IMG/VR virus record: IMGVR_UViG_3300043434_000295
Span: 102,833-166,832 of that record
Source of the DNA: a virus
Length of the DNA stretch: 64,000 bases
Reading direction: 5' to 3' (one strand)
This document shows positions 24,111 through 38,149 of the stretch, one piece after another (the stretch's first letter is position 1; every line of letters begins with the position of its first letter). The translations under genes were made by a program, and so were the position numbers. Below the pieces are notes generated by a model that was not told the origin of the DNA, made no database searches, and saw only the letters and a program-made list of their open reading frames with translations.

Positions 24111-24130
24111 TAACCAACCGGAGATAAAGA

Positions 24131-24910
24131 TTGGCAAGCTCAAGAAAAGCATCACTTAAGAGCGTAGATAATGAATCACATGATAATAAATCCCCAAGAG
24201 TTGCAGTGAACAATTCGTTAAAAATAAGGATTGATGACTTAAAAACATTCGAACCACTTACACAGAATCAAAAAATATTTTTTGATTCCTATAAAAGAGG
24301 TGATTATTTTGTAGCATTACATGGAGTTGCCGGAACTGGTAAAACATTTTGTGCATTGTATAAAGCACTAGAAGAAGTACTCGATAAGAGTAATCCATTT
24401 AAAAAGATTATTGTTGTTCGTTCAGCAGTACAATCACGTGAAATTGGTCATTTGCCTGGAGACGTGACCGAAAAAATGGAAATCTATCAACAACCATACC
24501 GTCAAATTTGCGAAACATTATTTGGTCGCAAAGATGCATGGGATAGATTAGAAGAACAAGGTTATATTGAATTCATTTCAACTTCGTTCATTCGCGGTAT
24601 GTCATTTGACGATGCAATTATTATCGTTGATGAAATGCAGAATTTGACGTTTGAAGAAATTGACACTGTTATGACTCGTGTTGGTTACCGTTCTAAAATC
24701 ATTTGGTGCGGTGATTATAGACAAACTGATTTGAATAAAAAGAAGAATGATGTCACTGGTATTTTGAAGTTTTTTGACATTGCATATCATATGGGTGCAT
24801 TTACAAAGATTGAATTTACAGTTGATGATATTGTTCGAAGTTCATTGGTCAAGGATTATATTTTGGCCAAATTAAAATATGAAGACAACGTTTCACCACA
24901 TTCATCATGA
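24131..24910 (+). CDS. phoH: PhoH-like ATPase, 259 aa
   Basis: TTG start at 24131, supported by GGAG 7 nt upstream. Walker A GVAGTGKT (about residues 64-71), PhoH block IIVVRSAVQSREIGHLPGD, Walker B IIIVDEMQN (about 162-170). Common in phages of aquatic bacteria; RNA helicase or phosphate-related roles are proposed but unproven. Overlaps the nuclease gene by 32 nt. Confidence 0.9.
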   Translation: MASSRKASLKSVDNESHDNKSPRVAVNNSLKIRIDDLKTFEPLTQNQKIFFDSYKRGDYFVALHGVAGTGKTFCALYKALEEVLDKSNPFKKIIVVRSAVQSREIGHLPGDVTEKMEIYQQPYRQICETLFGRKDAWDRLEEQGYIEFISTSFIRGMSFDDAIIIVDEMQNLTFEEIDTVMTRVGYRSKIIWCGDYRQTDLNKKKNDVTGILKFFDIAYHMGAFTKIEFTVDDIVRSSLVKDYILAKLKYEDNVSPHSS

Positions 24911-25538
24911 GATTGATAAGCTTACCCGTATCGATTCACCGGGTGGTAGACTATATCAAACGCCAACCGGTCGATCCTATCCATCGGTCACATCTGTCCT
25001 CGGAATCCTTGGAAAAGCAGAAATCCTTGAGTGGAGAAAACGGGTTGGAGAAGACGAAGCAAATAGGATCTCGTCAAGAGCAGCACGTAGAGGCACTGCT
25101 ATACACACGCTCTGCGAACATTATTTACTCAACGAGAACGTCAATCCTGGACCTTTTGATTTAGATACATTTAAGTCTTTAAAGCCATATCTAGACAATA
25201 TAAATAATATACATTGTCTAGAGACTCAACTTTATTCAGATTTCCTTCAAGTTGCCGGTACTGTAGATTGTATTGCCGAGTATGAAGGAAAACTTTCTAT
25301 AATTGACTTTAAAACGTCAAAGAGAGTTAAGTCACGAGACGATATTCACGGGTATTTCATGCAGACAGCTGCATATGCTGTTATGTTTGAAGAAAGAACC
25401 GGAATTCCAGTTGGAAAATTGGTTATCATCATGTCTGTCGATGATGATAAACCATTAATTTTCAAAGAGAAACGCGACGATTGGATAAATAGATTTATAG
25501 AGCTAAGGGAAGATTATTCAAAGCTCATGAACAAATAA
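24879..25538 (+). CDS. PD-(D/E)XK exonuclease, 219 aa
   Basis: RecB-like nuclease core: AGTVDCIAEYEGKLSIIDFKTSKR contains the catalytic D then D-x-K; before it RRGTAIHTLCEHYL (the GTxxH motif) and after it FMQTAAYAVMF (the Q-x3-Y helix). T4-like aquatic phages carry this enzyme near phoH. Role in DNA degradation or recombination. Confidence 0.88.
   Translation: MKTTFHHIHHEIDKLTRIDSPGGRLYQTPTGRSYPSVTSVLGILGKAEILEWRKRVGEDEANRISSRAARRGTAIHTLCEHYLLNENVNPGPFDLDTFKSLKPYLDNINNIHCLETQLYSDFLQVAGTVDCIAEYEGKLSIIDFKTSKRVKSRDDIHGYFMQTAAYAVMFEERTGIPVGKLVIIMSVDDDKPLIFKEKRDDWINRFIELREDYSKLMNK
25190..25222. repeat. Intragenic inverted repeat TCTAGACAAT / ATTGTCTAGA
   Basis: Perfect 10-bp arms at 25190-25199 and 25213-25222 inside the exonuclease gene. 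Confidence 0.6.
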
Positions 25539-26766: not shown

Positions 26767-27406
26767 TATCTTTTTCATCTGTTACAATGAAAGTAACAGA
26801 ATTGAGAATTGGAATAGAGTTGTAGAATTACACCCCAACGCAAAAATGGTGTATGGCGTCACTGATATTGCAAAGGCTCATCTAAGATGTAATGAACTTT
26901 GTACAACTGAAAGATTCTGGACAATCGATGGAGATAATTGGTTGTTAGACAGTCTTGATGTTGATGAGTATGAAGAAGATCTTATATTCTTTGATGCAAT
27001 AGATCCGATAGACAATTACGTTTCTACAATTGGTGGTGTTAAATTATGGAAGAAAAATAGTTTCATTAACACTACAATGGATAAAGGTGATTTTTGCAAA
27101 TTTGCAACAAAGACATATAAAGTAATTCACAAATCATTATCAATTCACAGATATGACAATACTCCAGAAGAAGCGTGGAGACATACTTTTAGACATATTG
27201 TAAAGTCGTTAACTGGAATTATTAGTAAAGAAGTTTTAGAAGACAATTTAAATCGTGCAAAAGAACACGAGCATCTAAATTCCCACAGTTATCGTGGATA
27301 CTTAGATGCTCTTGAATATGTTAAAGAGTGCGGCGGTGATTTTACTAAGATAAATTTAATAAATGATTATGATTGGTTATCATTAAAATGCGCCAAGAAG
27401 GTGTAA
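26759..27406 (+). CDS. Glycosyltransferase-like (GT-A) protein, 215 aa
   Basis: Start at the ATG overlapping the preceding stop; upstream TTG less likely. MYDIFFICYNESNRIENW has the GT-A entry strand, ERFWTIDGDNWLLD the DxD-type motif. The acidic C-terminus (HEHLNSHSYRGYLDALEY) is shared with small phage transferase-like proteins. Family assignment is tentative. Confidence 0.55.
   Translation: MYDIFFICYNESNRIENWNRVVELHPNAKMVYGVTDIAKAHLRCNELCTTERFWTIDGDNWLLDSLDVDEYEEDLIFFDAIDPIDNYVSTIGGVKLWKKNSFINTTMDKGDFCKFATKTYKVIHKSLSIHRYDNTPEEAWRHTFRHIVKSLTGIISKEVLEDNLNRAKEHEHLNSHSYRGYLDALEYVKECGGDFTKINLINDYDWLSLKCAKKV
27269..27311. repeat. Intragenic inverted repeat GAGCATCTAA / TTAGATGCTC
   Basis: 10-bp arms at 27269-27278 and 27302-27311, with an inner CCCAC/GTGG pairing. 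Inside the glycosyltransferase-like gene. Confidence 0.55.
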
Positions 27407-27862
27407 TCTCCATTCCGTAGAACAATTCATTGCAGAATGTGTTTCTCTAGTATCTACTTTGTACGCATTTCCAACTGGCATTTCGAATAAACCGTGATCT
27501 TTAAATACAAAGAAACATTGTTCATTTGTCACTAATGGAATATGTAATCTTGGTGAATCATCTCTATGCATCGAATAACATGATCTTGGTTTTAGCCACA
27601 TTAGACGAGTACGTTTAAGACCAAACTCATTTATGATTTCTTCGAATATGCTATTTTTGAAGAATGGATTGAGAATACATTTAGACCAATCGTCAGATGG
27701 TTTCATTCTTCCAACAGCATCTGACCATGGATCGTTATTTAAATATTGTAATCCCGCTTGCCTACCATTAGGATATTCAGTCCACTGAATATCCTTTTCT
27801 ACATTTGTATATGCATTCAAAAGTGTAGAATGATCTACACTGCCCATAATTTTAAAAATCAT
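27383..27862 (-). CDS. Aspartyl/asparaginyl beta-hydroxylase-like oxygenase, 159 aa
   Basis: MHRDDSPRLHIPLVTN gives the HxD iron ligands, and KVDTRETHSAMN the distal H, followed by EWRLHLLG (R for 2OG). This is the cupin/beta-hydroxylase layout. Iron- and 2OG-dependent hydroxylation of a peptide or small molecule is inferred. Converges on the glycosyltransferase-like gene with a 24-nt overlap; located directly downstream of the next minus gene. Confidence 0.72.
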   Translation of the reverse strand: MIFKIMGSVDHSTLLNAYTNVEKDIQWTEYPNGRQAGLQYLNNDPWSDAVGRMKPSDDWSKCILNPFFKNSIFEEIINEFGLKRTRLMWLKPRSCYSMHRDDSPRLHIPLVTNEQCFFVFKDHGLFEMPVGNAYKVDTRETHSAMNCSTEWRLHLLGAF

Positions 27863-29039: not shown

Positions 29040-29685
29040 TTAAATGAATACTATCTGATGTCCAACTTATAGTTCTATGAGTTTTACGTGTATTTACGTA
29101 GTAAACTCTACCCGGTTCTATTATGAGTTTCTTATCTGTTTCCATTATCCAATCATATTGTAATGGTCCACAATTATTCAAAAATGCAACTAATCTGAAT
29201 GAATTTCTTGGTATTGACGGATGATCTCTGTGCGGTAGAAAGTAACCACCAACACCAGAATTAATTAAGAAAGTTCTTCCAAGTGGAGAAAACTCTTCTA
29301 AAACATTTGTTAAGCTATAACACGCATTATATACTTCCGTTGGTTGATTAAACTCTAATTCTGTTACATGTCTACCAAGTTCTGCAATCGCTTGTGCTTG
29401 ACTGGGATTATCTTTGTGAGTTTTTCCGGGAAGATTCGTTAAAGATAATGCTTTCCTATTATTATGAATATGCGGTCTTGGTAAATAGTCAACCCATTCA
29501 TTTTCAAACTTAGATATTTCATTCATAAATTGTGAAGTATCTATTTTAAAATCCAATGGTTCGCAATCACCTAGATTTAATAACGCTAATTCATTTGCAA
29601 CAGTTTCTAAATTTACATTATTAGAATCGTATTGCACAGGGCGTTGACTTATTTCGTTTGGTTGTACTATAGTATTTGTCATCAC
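28972..29685 (-). CDS. 2OG-Fe(II) oxygenase-like protein, 237 aa
   Basis: FLPHRDHPSIPRNSFRLVAF (HxD) and YVNTRKTHRTISWTSD (distal H). The preceding PLQYDWIME strand and GRVYYV fit a cupin core. N-terminal 80 residues are an extra, unrecognised domain. Overlaps the PP-loop gene end by 4 nt. Confidence 0.68.
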   Translation of the reverse strand: MMTNTIVQPNEISQRPVQYDSNNVNLETVANELALLNLGDCEPLDFKIDTSQFMNEISKFENEWVDYLPRPHIHNNRKALSLTNLPGKTHKDNPSQAQAIAELGRHVTELEFNQPTEVYNACYSLTNVLEEFSPLGRTFLINSGVGGYFLPHRDHPSIPRNSFRLVAFLNNCGPLQYDWIMETDKKLIIEPGRVYYVNTRKTHRTISWTSDSIHLIMNVPMNSENVSKVLKHLQHRH

Positions 29686-30338
29686 ATTATTCCAGTATCA
29701 ATTAAATCATTTTTATAAAAAGCCCAAGCTCTTTCGCAGCACTGCCAACAGATACCACATCTAGTTGTTTTTGATGCAGTACACGTATGGGTTATATTTG
29801 GTATATCCAATAAATTTAAATCTTTTATAAGCTTTACAGTATCTGCTTTACTATAATCCCAGAATACGTCAAGTATTCTTTTATGGTTTGCTTTTATACG
29901 TTTTGGTCCATTGTAAAAACTTCCATCTGCATCTATAAATCTATCATATTCATAGTTTGGTAATAACTCTGGTGGATCTAAACTTTCAGGATTTTTTGTT
30001 ATAGCAGTCAGTGCTAAATCAAATTCATATTTCTGAATTGCTTCTATTACTCCAGATTTAACCTGAGAAGAGTGATGTCCATCGCCAGTTCCCACGAATA
30101 TTATATCAGAGTCTTTTAGTCCAAAAGTCTTATCAATATAGTTTACTATTCTTTTTGCATGTAATTCAGAATCATCGGGTCTTTTTACACAGAAGTATTT
30201 TATTTCAACGTCTACATTAAGTTTACGTTTTGTATCTTGTAATAAATATGCTAATAGAGTCGAATCAATTCCACCCGATATGAAAACGCCTATTATTTTA
30301 TGCGTTTTCACGATATCTTCTATAATTTTTAGTATCAT
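29682..30338 (-). CDS. PP-loop ATPase, QueC-like, 218 aa
   Basis: FISGGIDSTLLAYLL is the PP-loop (SGGxDS) that binds ATP in QueC, asparagine synthetase and related enzymes. At the C-terminus, C-x7-C-x2-C-x2-C (TCTASKTTRCGICWQCC) matches the zinc site of QueC, which makes 7-cyano-7-deazaguanine. No FolE, QueD, QueE or DpdA gene is seen here, so DNA 7-deazaguanine modification is not established; a different amide- or thio-forming reaction is possible. Start taken at MILKIIED; a 9-residue N-terminal extension also fits. Confidence 0.72.
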   Translation of the reverse strand: MILKIIEDIVKTHKIIGVFISGGIDSTLLAYLLQDTKRKLNVDVEIKYFCVKRPDDSELHAKRIVNYIDKTFGLKDSDIIFVGTGDGHHSSQVKSGVIEAIQKYEFDLALTAITKNPESLDPPELLPNYEYDRFIDADGSFYNGPKRIKANHKRILDVFWDYSKADTVKLIKDLNLLDIPNITHTCTASKTTRCGICWQCCERAWAFYKNDLIDTGIM

Positions 30339-30347
30339 GGTATAATA

Positions 30348-31112
30348 ATGAGAAATGAACAACAAATTTGTAATATAAAAAGTAGGATTAGCGATCCATA
30401 TGCTATTTCTGACTTTTTATCTAATGATGATATACAACATTTAATAGAACTTTATAAATCATATCATGTTAAAGTTCACAAAAATACAGGACCAATTGTA
30501 CTTGACTTGAATCATGTATTTGACGATCACGTAATTTCAAAAATTCTTCATAAGATACAGAACGAAATTGGACTATATGAAATAACTTCTGCGTTTTTCT
30601 TTGAAACGACATACCCGCACGTTATCCATAATGATGATTTAATTCAGTTACCTAATGGTATATATAAGGCTATTACAATTCCATTAGAGATTAAACGTGA
30701 ATACGAATCAAATGATTTTCCAAAGTTATGTTTCTTTGATCAGTTTTATTTTCACGGTCCATCTAAGTTTTTTAAAAATAGTGAAAATGATAATATCAAA
30801 GTTCATTATAATAAAAGTGTTTATGATTATAGTCAAATAGATGGCATCTTAAACGATAATGTGATAAATGACGATACATACCAAAAGCTTTTTACACATA
30901 TAAAACCAAAATGGTTAGAAGGTCTTAGTTTACATTCAACATTAGAATGGAAACCAACAACAGCTTTGATATTTGATAGCACTAGATTGCATGCGGCAAG
31001 TGATTTTAGAAAACTTGGAATAACATCTAAGATGGCTATAAGTGTTTTTACTACTATATCATCAGAAGAAAAGATAAAATATATTGATTTAAAAGAGGTG
31101 CAAGATGTTTGA
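30348..31112 (+). CDS. 2OG-Fe(II) oxygenase-like protein, 254 aa
   Basis: TYPHVIHNDDLIQLPNGIY (HxD) and ALIFDSTRLHAASDF (distal H, then a basic residue in SKMAISVF). The layout resembles phytanoyl-CoA-type or prolyl-hydroxylase-like proteins of aquatic phages. Divergent from the PP-loop gene with starts 10 bp apart. A TATAAT is 1 nt before the ATG and cannot be its promoter; one at 30321 could be. Confidence 0.65.
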   Translation: MRNEQQICNIKSRISDPYAISDFLSNDDIQHLIELYKSYHVKVHKNTGPIVLDLNHVFDDHVISKILHKIQNEIGLYEITSAFFFETTYPHVIHNDDLIQLPNGIYKAITIPLEIKREYESNDFPKLCFFDQFYFHGPSKFFKNSENDNIKVHYNKSVYDYSQIDGILNDNVINDDTYQKLFTHIKPKWLEGLSLHSTLEWKPTTALIFDSTRLHAASDFRKLGITSKMAISVFTTISSEEKIKYIDLKEVQDV

Positions 31113-31818
31113 ATGGACTTTTAGAAAAGCAGCAATATTCCAAATTGGCATGACACTAAGTTTACCAATTGCGTTTATGTATTTAGATGTAAGTTGGTTG
31201 GTGCTGTCTTTATTTGTTTTTTGGAGTTTTTCTTTAGCAACTACTGTAGGTTTACATAGACTTTTTGTTCATAATACATATAAGACTTCAAGATTTTGGC
31301 ATTGGGTTTTAGGTTTAACAAGTTGTTTATCTATGACATCTAGTCCTATACAGTGGGCTGTTGCGCATTACACACATCACAAATATAGTGATACTGATAA
31401 AGATCCTCATAATGCAAGTCTTGCGCGAATATTTGGCATTGCGTATTTTTCAAATGCAAATTACGATTTTACTAGAGCTAGAAGACTTATGAAAGATAAT
31501 ATGCATCGCTTCTTATTTAAATATTATTTGTTAATTCCTATCGTTTGGACTACAACATGGTATTTGATAGGCGGAGTTTCTGCTGCATATTTTTCATGGG
31601 CATTTCCAGCTGTGATATATATGTGGGCAAGTGCAATACATACAAGATTATCACACCAAAATAAAAGAGCAGTAAATATGCATCCATTGTTTGTGTTATT
31701 GTTTCTTGGTGAACATTTGCATAGAGATCACCATGATACTCCAAATTTGCAAAATTACGCAACTGAAAAAGGACAGATTGATCCTGGATATTGGTTAATA
31801 AAGTTGATTAGACAATGA
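31105..31818 (+). CDS. Membrane fatty-acid desaturase 1, 237 aa
   Basis: Three His boxes of membrane di-iron desaturases: HRLFVH (about residue 51), HYTHH (about 89) and HLHRDHH (about 206), with four hydrophobic segments. Family inserts double bonds into acyl chains of CoA, ACP or lipids. SD AAGAGGTGCAAG; 8-nt overlap with the oxygenase-like gene. Arginine codons are nearly all AGA. Confidence 0.9.
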   Translation: MFEWTFRKAAIFQIGMTLSLPIAFMYLDVSWLVLSLFVFWSFSLATTVGLHRLFVHNTYKTSRFWHWVLGLTSCLSMTSSPIQWAVAHYTHHKYSDTDKDPHNASLARIFGIAYFSNANYDFTRARRLMKDNMHRFLFKYYLLIPIVWTTTWYLIGGVSAAYFSWAFPAVIYMWASAIHTRLSHQNKRAVNMHPLFVLLFLGEHLHRDHHDTPNLQNYATEKGQIDPGYWLIKLIRQ

Positions 31819-32534
31819 CAAGAGTTAAATTGACAGTAGGATGGTTTTTGTTTTCTTTGATAACATTTCCATTTTTAGCATATTATAATTTTGATCCAGC
31901 ATTAGCAATACTGGGTGTGTTGTGGGCGTGGCTAGTATTGATTATTGGTCAAGTTTTAGCAGCACACCGATATTTTGTTCATACGTCATTTGAAGCAAAT
32001 TGGTTTCAACAGTTTATTATGAATTTCATGTTAACTATTGGATTTCAGGGTACTTCACAGGATTGGATAATATCACACAGTTATCACCACAAACATTCAG
32101 ATACTGATATTGATCCAACTAATATTAAAGTGATAGGATTTTTCAAGAATTATACTAGTCTTTGGCAATTACATTCGCCAGTTGATGCAGGTGGAATACG
32201 ATTAAGTCTTAGAAGTTTGCAAAATCCATTAACTAAATTTTTTCATAATAACTATTATGTCATTTGGATATGCTGGGCTTTATGTTTAAATCTAATATCG
32301 TTTGAAGTGTTTGTATGGTTTTTCTTTTTGCCAGTCATATTTAGTCATTGTTTTATGAATTTGCAAAATCATTTAGGTCATAGATCTAATGTAAGTTATG
32401 TTATTAATACTTTAGCGCCCGGAGATGGTTATCATAGGTATCATCATGAAAATCCAAGAGAATATAAATTCGGTGAGTATGATATGATTGCTTTTTTGAT
32501 AAAACATCTTTTTAAATCAAAGGGTGTACATTAA
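31815..32534 (+). CDS. Membrane fatty-acid desaturase 2, 239 aa
   Basis: His boxes HRYFVH (about 51), HSYHH (about 87) and HRYHH (about 207), also with the conserved KHSDTD. Diverged tandem copy of desaturase 1 (ATGA overlap). The early promoter of the tmRNA starts inside its last codons. Confidence 0.9.
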   Translation: MTRVKLTVGWFLFSLITFPFLAYYNFDPALAILGVLWAWLVLIIGQVLAAHRYFVHTSFEANWFQQFIMNFMLTIGFQGTSQDWIISHSYHHKHSDTDIDPTNIKVIGFFKNYTSLWQLHSPVDAGGIRLSLRSLQNPLTKFFHNNYYVIWICWALCLNLISFEVFVWFFFLPVIFSHCFMNLQNHLGHRSNVSYVINTLAPGDGYHRYHHENPREYKFGEYDMIAFLIKHLFKSKGVH

Positions 32535-32553
32535 ATCGCATTTGGTTTATAAT
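32525..32553 (+). promoter_or_regulatory. Early promoter of the tmRNA
   Basis: TGTACA (32525-32530), 17 bp with TTAAATCGC, TTGGTTTATAAT (-10 TATAAT at 32548-32553). Same design as the phage early promoters, so the RNA is under phage control. Confidence 0.75.
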
Positions 32554-32559
32554 ATAAAG

Positions 32560-32884
32560 AATTGTTGTAATCCCTTCAAAGCGAAGGACTTCTGGACGCG
32601 GGTTCGACTCCCGCCATCTCCACCAAAAGCACATACATCGCTTGTCACTTGAAACACTGCGATGGTACAGATGATAGTAGTGAAGTAATATCTGCTTAAT
32701 GTGTGCTTTTGATGGGGATGCCATGGTTTCGACAGAGGTAGATAGTAGAGACGGCAACACGGTAGGCGATGACCGTAAATCAAGCAAAAACTATAAACGC
32801 AGCAAATGAAAGCGTATTCGCCCTAGCAGCTTAAGCTAGGCCGTAGGGTTTCGGTGAGTTTCCTCGTAACAGAATAACTCACCA
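32560..32884 (+). ncRNA. ssrA: Circularly permuted (two-piece) tmRNA
   Basis: The acceptor piece comes first: T-arm GCGGG-TTCGACT-CCCGC (32598-32614), then CATCTCC (32615-32621), A and CCA (ends 32625). After an intervening segment the coding piece starts at 32714 with GGGGATG, which pairs with CATCTCC including a G3-U70 pair, the alanine identity element. The mature ends are joined in the precursor by a 9-bp stem (AAAAGCACA 32625-32633 with TGTGCTTTT 32702-32710). CTTCTG/CAGAGG can form P2. The tag frame (32802-32834) encodes ANESVFALAA then TAA, inside a CCTAGC/GCTAGG stem. A further GGTGAGTT/AACTCACC stem follows. The two ends (32560, 32884) are estimates. Function: rescue of stalled ribosomes and tagging of products for Clp proteases. 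Confidence 0.92.
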
Positions 32885-32904
32885 TCAACTACATGGAGAA
32901 AAGT

Positions 32905-33423
32905 ATGAAAAAAATAATCATAATTTTCTCGGTATTGGTATCAACATTGTTTGCATATACGCAATTACACACACCGCACAATACATCAAAACTTGATACG
33001 ACACCATACGCCGAGTTATCTAAAACTTCAAAGAAAGAAGTAGATTGTCTAGCTTTAAATATGTATAGAGAAGCTGGAGTTGAAGAAACACATGGTATGA
33101 TTGCAGTAGCACTCGTTACCATGAATCGCCTAAAAGCACAAGGATTTCCCGACACAGTCTGTAAAGTAGTACAACAAAAGACTAAGTCAACTTGTCAATT
33201 TTCATGGGTATGTTTAAATAGATTACCACGCATTGATCAAAAGATATATAATTATACAAGAGAACTCGCTACATACGTGTTTCTTAATCATACTCTAATT
33301 GCAGACACCACTAATGGCGCTTTATTCTATCATGCAGATTATGTAAATCCACGATGGAAAAAACTTGAAGTGACTACTAAAATTGGAAGACATATTTTTT
33401 ATAAACCCATTGGAGAAATATAA
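32905..33423 (+). CDS. SleB-like cell-wall hydrolase, secreted, 172 aa
   Basis: Signal peptide KKIIIIFSVLVSTLFAY, then DCLALNMYREA, GMIAVALVTMNRLK, FPDTVCKVVQQK and CQFSW, the Hydrolase_2/SleB layout, with a catalytic glutamate in REAGVEE. Likely endolysin or peptidoglycan-modifying enzyme. Start at ATG 32905, 6 nt after GGAGAAAA; an in-frame ATG at 32893 is possible. Confidence 0.85.
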   Translation: MKKIIIIFSVLVSTLFAYTQLHTPHNTSKLDTTPYAELSKTSKKEVDCLALNMYREAGVEETHGMIAVALVTMNRLKAQGFPDTVCKVVQQKTKSTCQFSWVCLNRLPRIDQKIYNYTRELATYVFLNHTLIADTTNGALFYHADYVNPRWKKLEVTTKIGRHIFYKPIGEI

Positions 33424-34043
33424 TGGCAGAAGTACTTGAAATTGGAAAACCTAAGAGTCATTCTAATGGTTATTTTCCAGTTAAACCCATTTCATCATTG
33501 CATGAATTTTATTTGACGGGAGAAATTAGTTCTGCTGATGATTATGTCGAATGGTTTGACGCAATTCGTCATGCATCCGAAACAGATCTAATTAAGATCT
33601 ACATTAATTCTTATGGTGGCGATTTATTTACAGCTATTCAATTTTTGAGAGTTTTGAGCGATACTCCTGCAACAGTAGTTTGCTCAGTTGAAGGCGCATG
33701 CATGTCTGCAGCTACTATGATTTTCTTGTCTGCTGATCATTTTGAAGTCACACCGCATTCTATCTTTATGTTCCACAATTACTCAGGTGGTACTATTGGT
33801 AAAGGTGGCGAAATGATTGATCAACTACAACACGAACGCAAATGGTCTGAACGTCTAATGCGTGAAATCTATAAAGATTTTATGAATAATGATGAAATCA
33901 AAGCAATGCTAGACAATAAAGATATTTGGATGGATGGCGAAGAAGTAGTTAAGCGCATTCATGCTAGAATTCAAAAGAATGAAAAGCCTGCAGTAAAACC
34001 TGCATCAAAAACGCCAAGAAAAACCCCAAGAACTAAAAAATAA
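33423..34043 (+). CDS. ClpP-like serine protease, 206 aa
   Basis: ClpP/crotonase-fold peptidase with the strand KIYINSYGGDLFTAIQFL, nucleophile S95 in GACMSAATMIF, H118 in FMFHNYSGG and an Asp in DNKDIWMDGEEV. A basic proline/lysine-rich tail (residues 188-206) is extra. Host ClpP works with ClpX or ClpA; whether this one forms an active ring or serves as a phage prohead-type protease is unknown. Located right after the tmRNA and the cell-wall hydrolase (TAATGG overlap). Confidence 0.82.
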   Translation: MAEVLEIGKPKSHSNGYFPVKPISSLHEFYLTGEISSADDYVEWFDAIRHASETDLIKIYINSYGGDLFTAIQFLRVLSDTPATVVCSVEGACMSAATMIFLSADHFEVTPHSIFMFHNYSGGTIGKGGEMIDQLQHERKWSERLMREIYKDFMNNDEIKAMLDNKDIWMDGEEVVKRIHARIQKNEKPAVKPASKTPRKTPRTKK

Positions 34044-34047
34044 GCCC

Positions 34048-34076
34048 TGTACAATAATTCGTTATTGTGGTATAAT
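34048..34076 (+). promoter_or_regulatory. Early promoter of tRNA-Arg
   Basis: TGTACA (34048-34053), 17 bp with ATAATTCGTTATTG, GTGGTATAAT (-10 at 34071-34076). Confidence 0.75.
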
Positions 34077-34086
34077 TATATCAAAT

Positions 34087-34161
34087 CTGGCGTTCGTATA
34101 ATGGATAATACAGCACTCTTCTAAAGTGTGAATGTGGGTTCGATTCCTGCACGCCGGACCA
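34087..34161 (+). tRNA. tRNA-Arg(TCT)
   Basis: Acceptor CTGGCGT/ACGCCGG, D-arm GTAT/ATAC, anticodon loop CTTCTAA (anticodon TCT), T-loop TTCGATT, encoded CCA at 34159-34161. Decodes AGA/AGG, the main arginine codons of the island and structural genes. Pair 1-72 is C-G. Confidence 0.9.
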
Positions 34162-35996: not shown

Positions 35997-36402
35997 CGAA
36001 CCACAATATAGAATCAACTATTCACACGTTGTGAGTGACAAAAATCTTTTGTCTATTACTAAGTTGCTAGCATCAAGTATGATGAATAGTTCTTATATGA
36101 CTATTGGTGATTTCCTAAAAGGAATCAGTGACAACGATCTACAAACCCTGCTTGATATCATTGACGAAGGAGACGAATCTCCGGGTTTTGAAGACATCAT
36201 GCTAATTTCAGGTATGTTGGCTGATGGTGAAGGCGTTTCGTGCAAAAATGTTGAAGATTATCAAAAGTGTGTAAACATGTTTATGACATATGTTGCGATG
36301 GAATCACTTTATCGTAAAGGTATGATCAAACTACATCGTCAAAATATGTCATTTGGTGATGACATGGGTAACTCTATTGTTGTAGAAAAACTAGATGATT
36401 GA
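35989..36402 (+). CDS. Hypothetical protein upstream of gp59, 137 aa
   Basis: ITKLLASSMMNSSYMTIGDFL, then LLDIIDEGDESPGFEDIMLIS and MFMTYVAMESLYRKGMI. In T4 the gene before 59 is late-transcription factor 33; position alone suggests such a role, sequence does not prove it. Starts at 35983 and 35989 are both possible. Confidence 0.6.
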   Translation: MNDEPQYRINYSHVVSDKNLLSITKLLASSMMNSSYMTIGDFLKGISDNDLQTLLDIIDEGDESPGFEDIMLISGMLADGEGVSCKNVEDYQKCVNMFMTYVAMESLYRKGMIKLHRQNMSFGDDMGNSIVVEKLDD

Positions 36403-36994
36403 TTCTTTTCAAACATACAAATATTTCATGGCAATAAAATTGCATTTGACAACAGATCGCTATGATGTATTTAAATCAAATGGTAAAGTGTCAGGATCAC
36501 GCGCAACATTTGAAAAACGTAATGATAGATTCTTATTTGAAAAACTAGGACGTAAGTTTAGTCAACCACGTGAACTGATTGAGTATTTTGTTTCTAATAT
36601 TGCCTATGGAAACAAGAACGTTATCTATTCACATGACTCGGATAACAATTATGAAACATGGATTAAGCGAAAAGAATCACGCACTTATTCTTTCACACAA
36701 GACTTAAGAAAAATTCAATCTCACTTAGATTCTGATTCATTAGCATTTGATACTCTTTTTGATACGCACGACAATGTTCCAGAATTATTGAAGTTATACG
36801 TAGGTGGACATATAACATTAGAAACAATGGTTATCATAGATGAATTTGAATCTTATTTGCCAAAATGGAAATCCCTAGCACTAGTATGGGGTGATCAGCT
36901 TAGAGTTTTAAATAAGATAAAAAATTTTGTAAAGTACGATAAAGATAAATTAAAATCTATCTATCAGCAGTTCAAGGAACAATCTTCAGAGTAA
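36395..36994 (+). CDS. 59: Helicase loader gp59-like, 199 aa
   Basis: Aligns in layout with T4 gp59: FQTYKYFMAIKLHLTTDRYDVFK, then SRATFEKRNDRFLFEKLGRKF and a YFVSN strand, C-terminal helical half. gp59 loads gp41 helicase onto gp32-covered forks. Directly upstream of gp32, as in T4. Confidence 0.75.
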   Translation: MIDSFQTYKYFMAIKLHLTTDRYDVFKSNGKVSGSRATFEKRNDRFLFEKLGRKFSQPRELIEYFVSNIAYGNKNVIYSHDSDNNYETWIKRKESRTYSFTQDLRKIQSHLDSDSLAFDTLFDTHDNVPELLKLYVGGHITLETMVIIDEFESYLPKWKSLALVWGDQLRVLNKIKNFVKYDKDKLKSIYQQFKEQSSE

Positions 36995-36998
36995 TATA

Positions 36999-37226
36999 AT
37001 GGGTCGCACTAATAGTAAGTTTCGTGATGATGAAGACGATCGCAGAAATAAATCATCAAAAGGCGCAAAACATTCAAGAAATATTCCCGGACAGGGCATG
37101 CGCGTTATAAATAATTGGTCGGATGAAGATTATGATGATGACGAATGGTCTGATGACTATGATGAATTTTCATATGATGAATCTGACGAATATAACGTAA
37201 ATACTACGCAAACACAACGTAAATAA
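36999..37226 (+). CDS. Small acidic phage protein, 75 aa
   Basis: Basic N-terminus (NKSSKGAKHSRNIPGQGMRVI) then a D/E/Y-rich tail (DEDYDDDEWSDDYDEF). KHSRNIPGQGMR is found in comparable proteins of T4-like phages next to gp32/gp59. Unknown. Confidence 0.65.
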   Translation: MGRTNSKFRDDEDDRRNKSSKGAKHSRNIPGQGMRVINNWSDEDYDDDEWSDDYDEFSYDESDEYNVNTTQTQRK

Positions 37227-37237
37227 GGAAACACAAA

Positions 37238-38149
37238 ATGGATATTAATACGCTCCGCAAAATGCGCAACTCCGACTTCGGTAAAATCTCTTCCGAATTC
37301 GAAAAGATTGCTAATCCGCAATCTGAATCTAAATCCTACCAAGATGATCGTTTTTGGAAGCTAGAAGCTGACAAGGCAGGAAATGGTACGGCAACTATTC
37401 GATTCCTACCAACTGCAGAAGGTGATGACTTGCCTTGGGTTAAAATCTTTTCCCACGGCTTCCAAGGTCCTACTGGTAAGTGGTATATCGAAAACTCCCT
37501 AACAACTATTGGCGAAAACGATCCAGTCGGCGAATTGAATTCTCGTCTTTGGAATACAGGCAATGAAGCTGATAAGGAAACTGCACGCAAGCAAAAGCGC
37601 AAGCTTTCATATGTTGCTAACGTTCTTATTGTTTCTGATCCTAAGCATCCAGAAAATGAAGGCAAGGTTAAACTCTTCAAGTTTGGTAAGAAAATCTTTG
37701 ATAAGATTATGGACAAAGCACGTCCTACTTTTGAAGATGAAACACCTGTAAACGTATTTGATCTTTGGGCTGGTGCAGACTTTAAATTGCGTATGCGTAA
37801 AGTCGATGGCTATCCAAACTATGATCAATCTGCTTTCCAAGAGCCAAGCGCTATTACTGAAGACGAAGATAAAATGCTGGCAATCGTAAATGGCCAACAT
37901 AAGCTTTCAGAATTCTTAGATCGTAAGAACTTCAAGACATATGAAGAACTTTCGCGTAAATTGGCTACTGTTCTTGATAGCAATGGATCTAATACTCCAT
38001 CTGCTGCATCGATTGCAGACGACGATGACGATACACCTGTACGTCAAGTAAGCGTAACTGCGCCAAAATCTAAAGTCACCGTTGCTTCTAGTGACGATGA
38101 CGATGATGAAGCAATGAGCTTCTTCAAGAAGATTGCTATGGAAGGGTGA
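37238..38149 (+). CDS. 32: Single-stranded DNA-binding protein gp32, 303 aa
   Basis: N-terminal LAST-type cooperativity region (MDINTLRKMRNSDFGK), core WKLEADKAGNGTATIRFLP, WVKIFSHGF and an acidic C-terminal tail (DDDDDEAMSFFKKI), the T4 gp32 plan and length (T4: 301). The T4 zinc site (H-C-C-C) is not kept: there is no cysteine in the protein, with DPVG where T4 has CPVC. Zinc-free gp32 occurs in other aquatic T4-like phages. SD AAGGAAACACAAA; stop overlaps a stem-loop. Confidence 0.9.
   Translation: MDINTLRKMRNSDFGKISSEFEKIANPQSESKSYQDDRFWKLEADKAGNGTATIRFLPTAEGDDLPWVKIFSHGFQGPTGKWYIENSLTTIGENDPVGELNSRLWNTGNEADKETARKQKRKLSYVANVLIVSDPKHPENEGKVKLFKFGKKIFDKIMDKARPTFEDETPVNVFDLWAGADFKLRMRKVDGYPNYDQSAFQEPSAITEDEDKMLAIVNGQHKLSEFLDRKNFKTYEELSRKLATVLDSNGSNTPSAASIADDDDDTPVRQVSVTAPKSKVTVASSDDDDDEAMSFFKKIAMEG

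Follow-up and report, generated by a model that had tools for sequence, protein, structure and literature searches.

Does a tmRNA gene carried by a T4-like virus serve the phage as a ribosome-rescue RNA of its own, or is it recently acquired host DNA, a decoy, or part of a phage-borne degradation system? The gene in question lies in a window of 64,000 nucleotides that spans bases 102833-166832 of the virus record IMGVR_UViG_3300043434_000295, which is 166,832 bases long; all coordinates below are those of the window. Homologues of baseplate proteins, gp59 and gp32 mark the virus as a T4-like myovirus, and its gp5 homologue is nearest to those of Synechococcus phage BUCT-ZZ01 and Methylophilales phage Melnitz, at less than 40% identity. 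We consider it likely, with a probability of roughly 0.86, that the locus is a permuted ssrA gene of the beta type, functional and adapted to the phage, whose transcript is processed by the host and rescues stalled ribosomes.

Identity and anatomy of the gene

Positions 32558-32887 on the plus strand contain a beta-type gene for permuted (two-piece) tmRNA (Table 1). The Rfam covariance model RF01850 (beta_tmRNA) matches 32513-32887 with 145.6 bits against a cut-off of 84 (E = 1.3e-44), and RF04321 (tmRNA_permuted) matches 32563-32834 with 142.9 bits against a gathering cut-off of 47 (E = 4.3e-28), both E-values applying to the 64 kb and the whole of Rfam. RF01850 is the top model of its clan, the remaining clan matches scoring lower. 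ARAGORN likewise calls a permuted tmRNA, with the tag AANESVFALAA. An earlier, sequence-only reading of the locus had proposed a phage-encoded, circularly permuted tmRNA, and this is borne out by all three, the covariance models matching far above their cut-offs.

The piece bearing the acceptor and T-arm is encoded 5' of the coding piece. Between the two, GGGGATG and CATCTCC pair at seven of seven positions, G3-U70 included, as the sequence-only reading had described for a 7-bp acceptor. The precursor hairpin that it placed between the pieces is also recovered: the spacer ends pair, and the precursor has a minimum-free-energy z-score of -3.4, the spacer taken together with the acceptor one of -4.65. 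The tag codons are GCA GCA AAT GAA AGC GTA TTC GCC CTA GCA GCT TAA, with the first GCA behind the usual TAAAC context; an initial reading of the tag as ANESVFALAA-stop had the tag and stop right and missed only this first codon. The frame, with its stop, ends as a ClpXP-type degron, and a hairpin (CCUAGC/GCUAGG, 32822-32840) surrounds the stop codon.

With betaproteobacterial ssrA (RF01850) the gene shares the permuted order, T-arm, acceptor G3-U70, PK1, ALAA tag and 3' hairpin, and the promoter -10 element holds the same position as in the model. It differs from the model in its start, CCATGG where the consensus has TACTGG, and in lacking the last long hairpin, whereas the spacer, at 88 nt, exceeds the 30-49 nt of parsed bacterial loci. 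The alignment has a deletion where RF01850 has its terminal 3' hairpin, with a shorter, covarying hairpin sitting before that point, and we treat the absence of the terminal hairpin as variability at the model's end rather than loss of a defining part of tmRNA.

When up to one mismatch is allowed, the window contains 17 copies of the sigma-70-like motif in front of the gene, TGTACA-N17-TATAAT, where 1.17 would be expected; all are on the plus strand, and one precedes the tRNA-Arg gene. On these grounds we regard it as the phage's promoter type, in agreement with the phage promoter noted in the sequence-only reading. Its sites include 2843, 3724, 14204, 15344, 32525, 34048, 34396 and 34994. Several copies contain an AATTCGT-like element within their spacer.

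Table 1. Features of the tmRNA locus and its surroundings, in window coordinates.
Feature	Position	Strand	Description and evidence
PhoH-like and exonuclease genes	24128..25538	+	Families c12 and c7; conserved left border of slot
Sigma-70-like phage promoter	32525..32553	+	TGTACA-N17-TATAAT; 5' of tmRNA gene
tmRNA acceptor piece	32558..32625	+	P2 strand, T-arm, acceptor 3' strand CATCTCC, discriminator A, encoded CCA; 5' end approximate; RF01850 and RF04321 alignments
Acceptor-piece landmarks	T-arm from 32598; CATCTCC 32615-32621; discriminator A 32622; CCA 32623-32625	+	
Intervening spacer, 88 nt	32626..32713	+	Predicted to be excised; ends form 10-bp helix stacked near acceptor stem
tmRNA coding piece	32714..32887	+	Acceptor 5' strand GGGGATG, TGGTTTCGAC, P2, PK1 region, tag frame, 3' hairpin; 3' end approximate; RF01850 match to 32887
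Tag reading frame	32799..32834	+	AANESVFALAA-stop; ARAGORN and sequence
3' hairpin of coding piece	32853..32883	+	Arms GGTGAGTT/AACTCACC, conserved loop TCCTCGTAAC
Cell-wall hydrolase endolysin (PF07486)	32893..33423	+	Pfam 1.5e-22, phrog_938; usual downstream neighbour; likelier start ATG 32905, GGAGA in front
ClpP-like serine protease	33423..34043	+	PF00574 8.5e-12; phrog_1827 6e-65; PDB ClpP alignment
Phage-type promoter, then tRNA-Arg(TCT)	34048..34161	+	Promoter 34048-34076; tRNA 34087-34161
gp59-like helicase loader and gp32-like single-strand DNA-binding protein	36395..38149	+	PF08993, phrog_224; conserved right border of slot

Conservation among phage relatives

Compensatory change is seen on comparison with phage relatives from IMG/VR. 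At acceptor pair 5-68, 65 relatives have A-U, 34 G-C, 23 C-G and one G-U. G3-U70 is present in 123/123 parsed phage genes, although in most loci the search pattern had already set acceptor pairs 1-4 and some of 6-7, and these count for less. Among 49 distinct phage sequences, the 3' hairpin is built from 24 different arm pairs, all of at least 6 bp. The spacer varies in sequence while the pairing of its ends is kept: across 100 phage spacers, own ends pair with a mean of -12.8 kcal/mol, compared with -6.1 when ends are swapped between loci.

Tags end in ALAA in 98 of the 132 parsed, a set that includes a few frame errors, and nearly all tags have a related xxAA end. The basic tag DDRKSSK... 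called by ARAGORN in L021 and L022 was rejected as a wrong frame; the codons GCA AAC GAC TCA CAG TTC GCA TTA GCA GCC TAA give ANDSQFALAA. Some odd or longer tags (ANDAFYGEDRLAA, ANDAYFGDERLAA, ANDDFYNEEYAVAA, ANDDVYTEDFALAA), set against the usual 10 residues, were seen among L127, L133, L145, L150, L171 and L184. A close relative, L005 (1587-1790), has an unusually long spacer of about 194 nt. An open frame of 67 codons (MSDNNTSRQFTKKRRQ...) lies mostly within it and continues into the coding piece; this frame may be due to chance or may be a small gene inside the excised spacer.

Proposed mode of action

To the gene, structure, promoter motif and covariation described here, established tmRNA biology adds a probable course of events. 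RNA polymerase would start at the phage-type promoter and yield a single precursor, from which host tRNA-processing enzymes would excise the hairpin spacer, RNase P cutting at the G of GGGGATG and 3' processing taking place at the encoded CCA. The acceptor and coding RNAs would stay joined through the 7-bp acceptor stem and P2. Host alanyl-tRNA synthetase would then charge the tmRNA by way of G3-U70, and host SmpB would bring it to stalled ribosomes. SmpB is present in nearly all bacteria (PMC11915505). The ribosome would move to the tag frame, append AANESVFALAA and be released, and the LAA end would mark the product for ClpXP-type proteases. The phage would probably benefit by having ribosomes kept free during host mRNA breakdown; rescue alone may be what is selected, with no gain from tagging as such needed.

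A different role is conceivable, in which a degenerate tmRNA acts as a decoy, loading SmpB and alanyl-tRNA synthetase without productive tagging. There is a precedent in the tag-less tmRNA of mycobacteriophage DS6A (PMC11915505), and an SmpB gene of the phage's own was not found in the 166,832-base record, which is linear and possibly incomplete, and SmpB could lie outside it. However, the gene retains an intact tag frame with its stop, PK1 region, identity pair and CCA, and in most relatives the parse gave an open tag frame with an xxAA end, features needless in a decoy. We accordingly regard a decoy as quite improbable, and a productive rescue RNA as the better reading of the gene.

Origin and relatives

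Two-piece tmRNAs are an established feature of phages. They make up 53 of 133 distinct phage tmRNA structures, with 50 of these coming from marine or aquatic samples (PMC9004378); 79 bacteriophage tmRNA sequences were listed where RF04321 was introduced (PMC11915505), and tmRNA and SmpB have been reported from huge phages (PMC7162821). One loose DNA pattern matches at least 119 stretches in IMG/VR. The suggestion of the sequence-only reading that a permuted tmRNA under a phage early promoter would be a rare case does not hold against these numbers; the present gene instead adds a well-supported case to a known class.

A tree of 135 tmRNAs, built by a quick search on 292 columns and with many deep forks weak, places the sequence among 62 that come from phages alone, a group with an SH-aLRT support of 99. 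None of the 23 bacterial rows (20 permuted and three taken as the alpha form) enters this group. The nearest sequence in the tree is that of a phage contig, L099, at 82%. Among 399 genomes of the order of Thauera, Burkholderiales in GTDB, the best bacterial match reaches 82% over 98 bases, and a specific acceptor pattern gave no matches in bacterial genomes.

These results bear on whether the phage has recently captured the ssrA of its host, or whether the contig is chimeric and the gene belongs to host DNA. That the beta type is the best of the permuted models does point to a betaproteobacterial-like source, but an ancient one. So partial a bacterial match, the position in a phage-only clade, and the phage promoter with phage genes on both sides speak against capture, and the same arrangement is repeated on independent metagenome contigs, which rules out the chimeric junction that had been a concern for the sequence-only reading. 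Recent capture is, in our estimate, extremely improbable, more so than a decoy. The gene is best read, on sequence comparison, as an old phage gene, inherited within phages and belonging to a group already known from them; its distant donor lineage may have been betaproteobacterial, but none of the bacterial sequences sampled is close to it.

Several isolates carry permuted tmRNAs of the beta type, among them XacN1, Marzo (Menderavirus) and PA_L9 (Samunavirus). As here, these score above cut-off with both RF04321 and RF01850, and they fall in the same 62-row phage clade, on long branches; their genomic contexts differ from that of the present gene, and their records mostly lack a tmRNA annotation. 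The hosts of such isolates are Xanthomonas, Stenotrophomonas and Pseudomonas, gammaproteobacteria whose own tmRNA is one-piece. The form of the gene is therefore no guide to the tmRNA type of the host, and the hint in the sequence-only reading that this host uses two-piece tmRNA is overstated in view of these isolates and of the phage-only clade. We would caution against inferring host identity from gene form.

Several phage records hold an unannotated or misannotated tmRNA. Permuted tmRNAs without tmRNA annotation were seen in the isolate records ON615601.1 (116952-117248), AP018399.1 (37231-37530 and 356026-356325) and PP869205.1 (80330-80629). XacN1 has two permuted copies, and part of one such gene is covered in BUCT-ZZ01 by an annotated hypothetical protein (UTS52133.1).

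Genomic setting and the neighbouring ClpP gene

Within this phage lineage the position of the tmRNA gene is fixed, in a slot bordered by PhoH and an exonuclease on one side and gp59 and gp32 on the other. This follows from its neighbours: of the 61 distinct tmRNA loci in IMG/VR whose downstream sequence runs to 3 kb or more, 49 have a member of the endolysin family on the same strand no farther than 4 kb downstream, the exonuclease is found upstream in 35 of the 54 with at least 2 kb upstream, and cultured Melnitz has the order PhoH, PD-(D/E)XK nuclease, tmRNA, late-transcription coactivator, gp59, gp32. The order common to most relatives is PhoH, exonuclease, [tmRNA], endolysin, gp59, gp32; in the present phage about 7 kb of cargo separates PhoH and the exonuclease from the tmRNA. 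Together with the tree, this suggests that phage two-piece tmRNAs are old, phage-inherited genes with a fixed place in T4-like genomes and not recent host captures, which would make phage tmRNA a candidate standing function of infection.

The two-piece tmRNA of Melnitz (MZ577097, 45984-46436) has been described (PMC9004378) and resembles the gene reported here in being permuted, in belonging to a T4-like phage and in occupying the slot between PhoH/PD-(D/E)XK nuclease and gp59/gp32. The two also differ. For Melnitz an alphaproteobacterial affinity and a link to a glutamine riboswitch have been reported (PMC9004378), whereas here the beta model fits best and no riboswitch scores above the Rfam gathering score in the window; and unlike Melnitz, the present phage has endolysin and ClpP genes between tmRNA and gp59.

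The ClpP-like protease, 0.5 kb downstream of the tmRNA and with its Ser95-His118-Asp167 triad intact, raises the thought of a functional module of tmRNA, endolysin and ClpP, in which the phage's own tmRNA would tag stalled products and its own ClpP, with host ClpX, would degrade them for late amino-acid recycling. We hold this to be unlikely, and equally doubtful a 'rescue, tag and degrade' cassette, with tmRNA and phage ClpP kept near the lysis gene and both remodelling host protein turnover. In its favour, all 21 IMG/VR records with both genes have ClpP on the strand of the tmRNA and no more than 15 kb away: 12 of the ClpP genes lie 0.1-3.1 kb downstream, another lies 9 kb downstream and the other eight are 6.6-14.7 kb upstream. 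In contigs of another layout, several beside tRNA arrays, the ClpP frame begins about 70 bp or less from the tmRNA. The contigs noted for ClpP near tmRNA are L080, L083, L084, L154, L166 and L194. Of 103 aligned phage ClpPs, at least 101 retain the catalytic triad, and the phage tags end in LAA.

The 21 records are not independent, however, since related phages share gene order. ClpP lies downstream in just 16 of the 61 distinct tmRNA loci, as against the 49 with the endolysin; in the same phages, many loci with ClpP are without a tmRNA close by; in XacN1 and BUCT-ZZ01 the two genes are tens of kilobases apart; Melnitz has no ClpP; and a ClpX-like AAA_2 protein is absent from the phage record. 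As ClpP is optional in the slot and often present without tmRNA, common gene order suffices to explain their closeness, and the module was downgraded on finding the same slot without ClpP and ClpP without tmRNA. No report of a tmRNA-ClpP module was found in the open-access papers searched. A phage-inherited rescue gene in a conserved slot, with ClpP as an occasional neighbour, is the reading that we prefer.

Cargo genes in the window include a nicotinamide phosphoribosyltransferase (476-1876), an Asp/Arg-hydroxylase-like protein (27383-27862), a QueC/Asn-synthase-like protein (29682-30365) and a fatty-acid desaturase (31105-31818), the last with a distant homologue in Pelagibacter phage Mosig.
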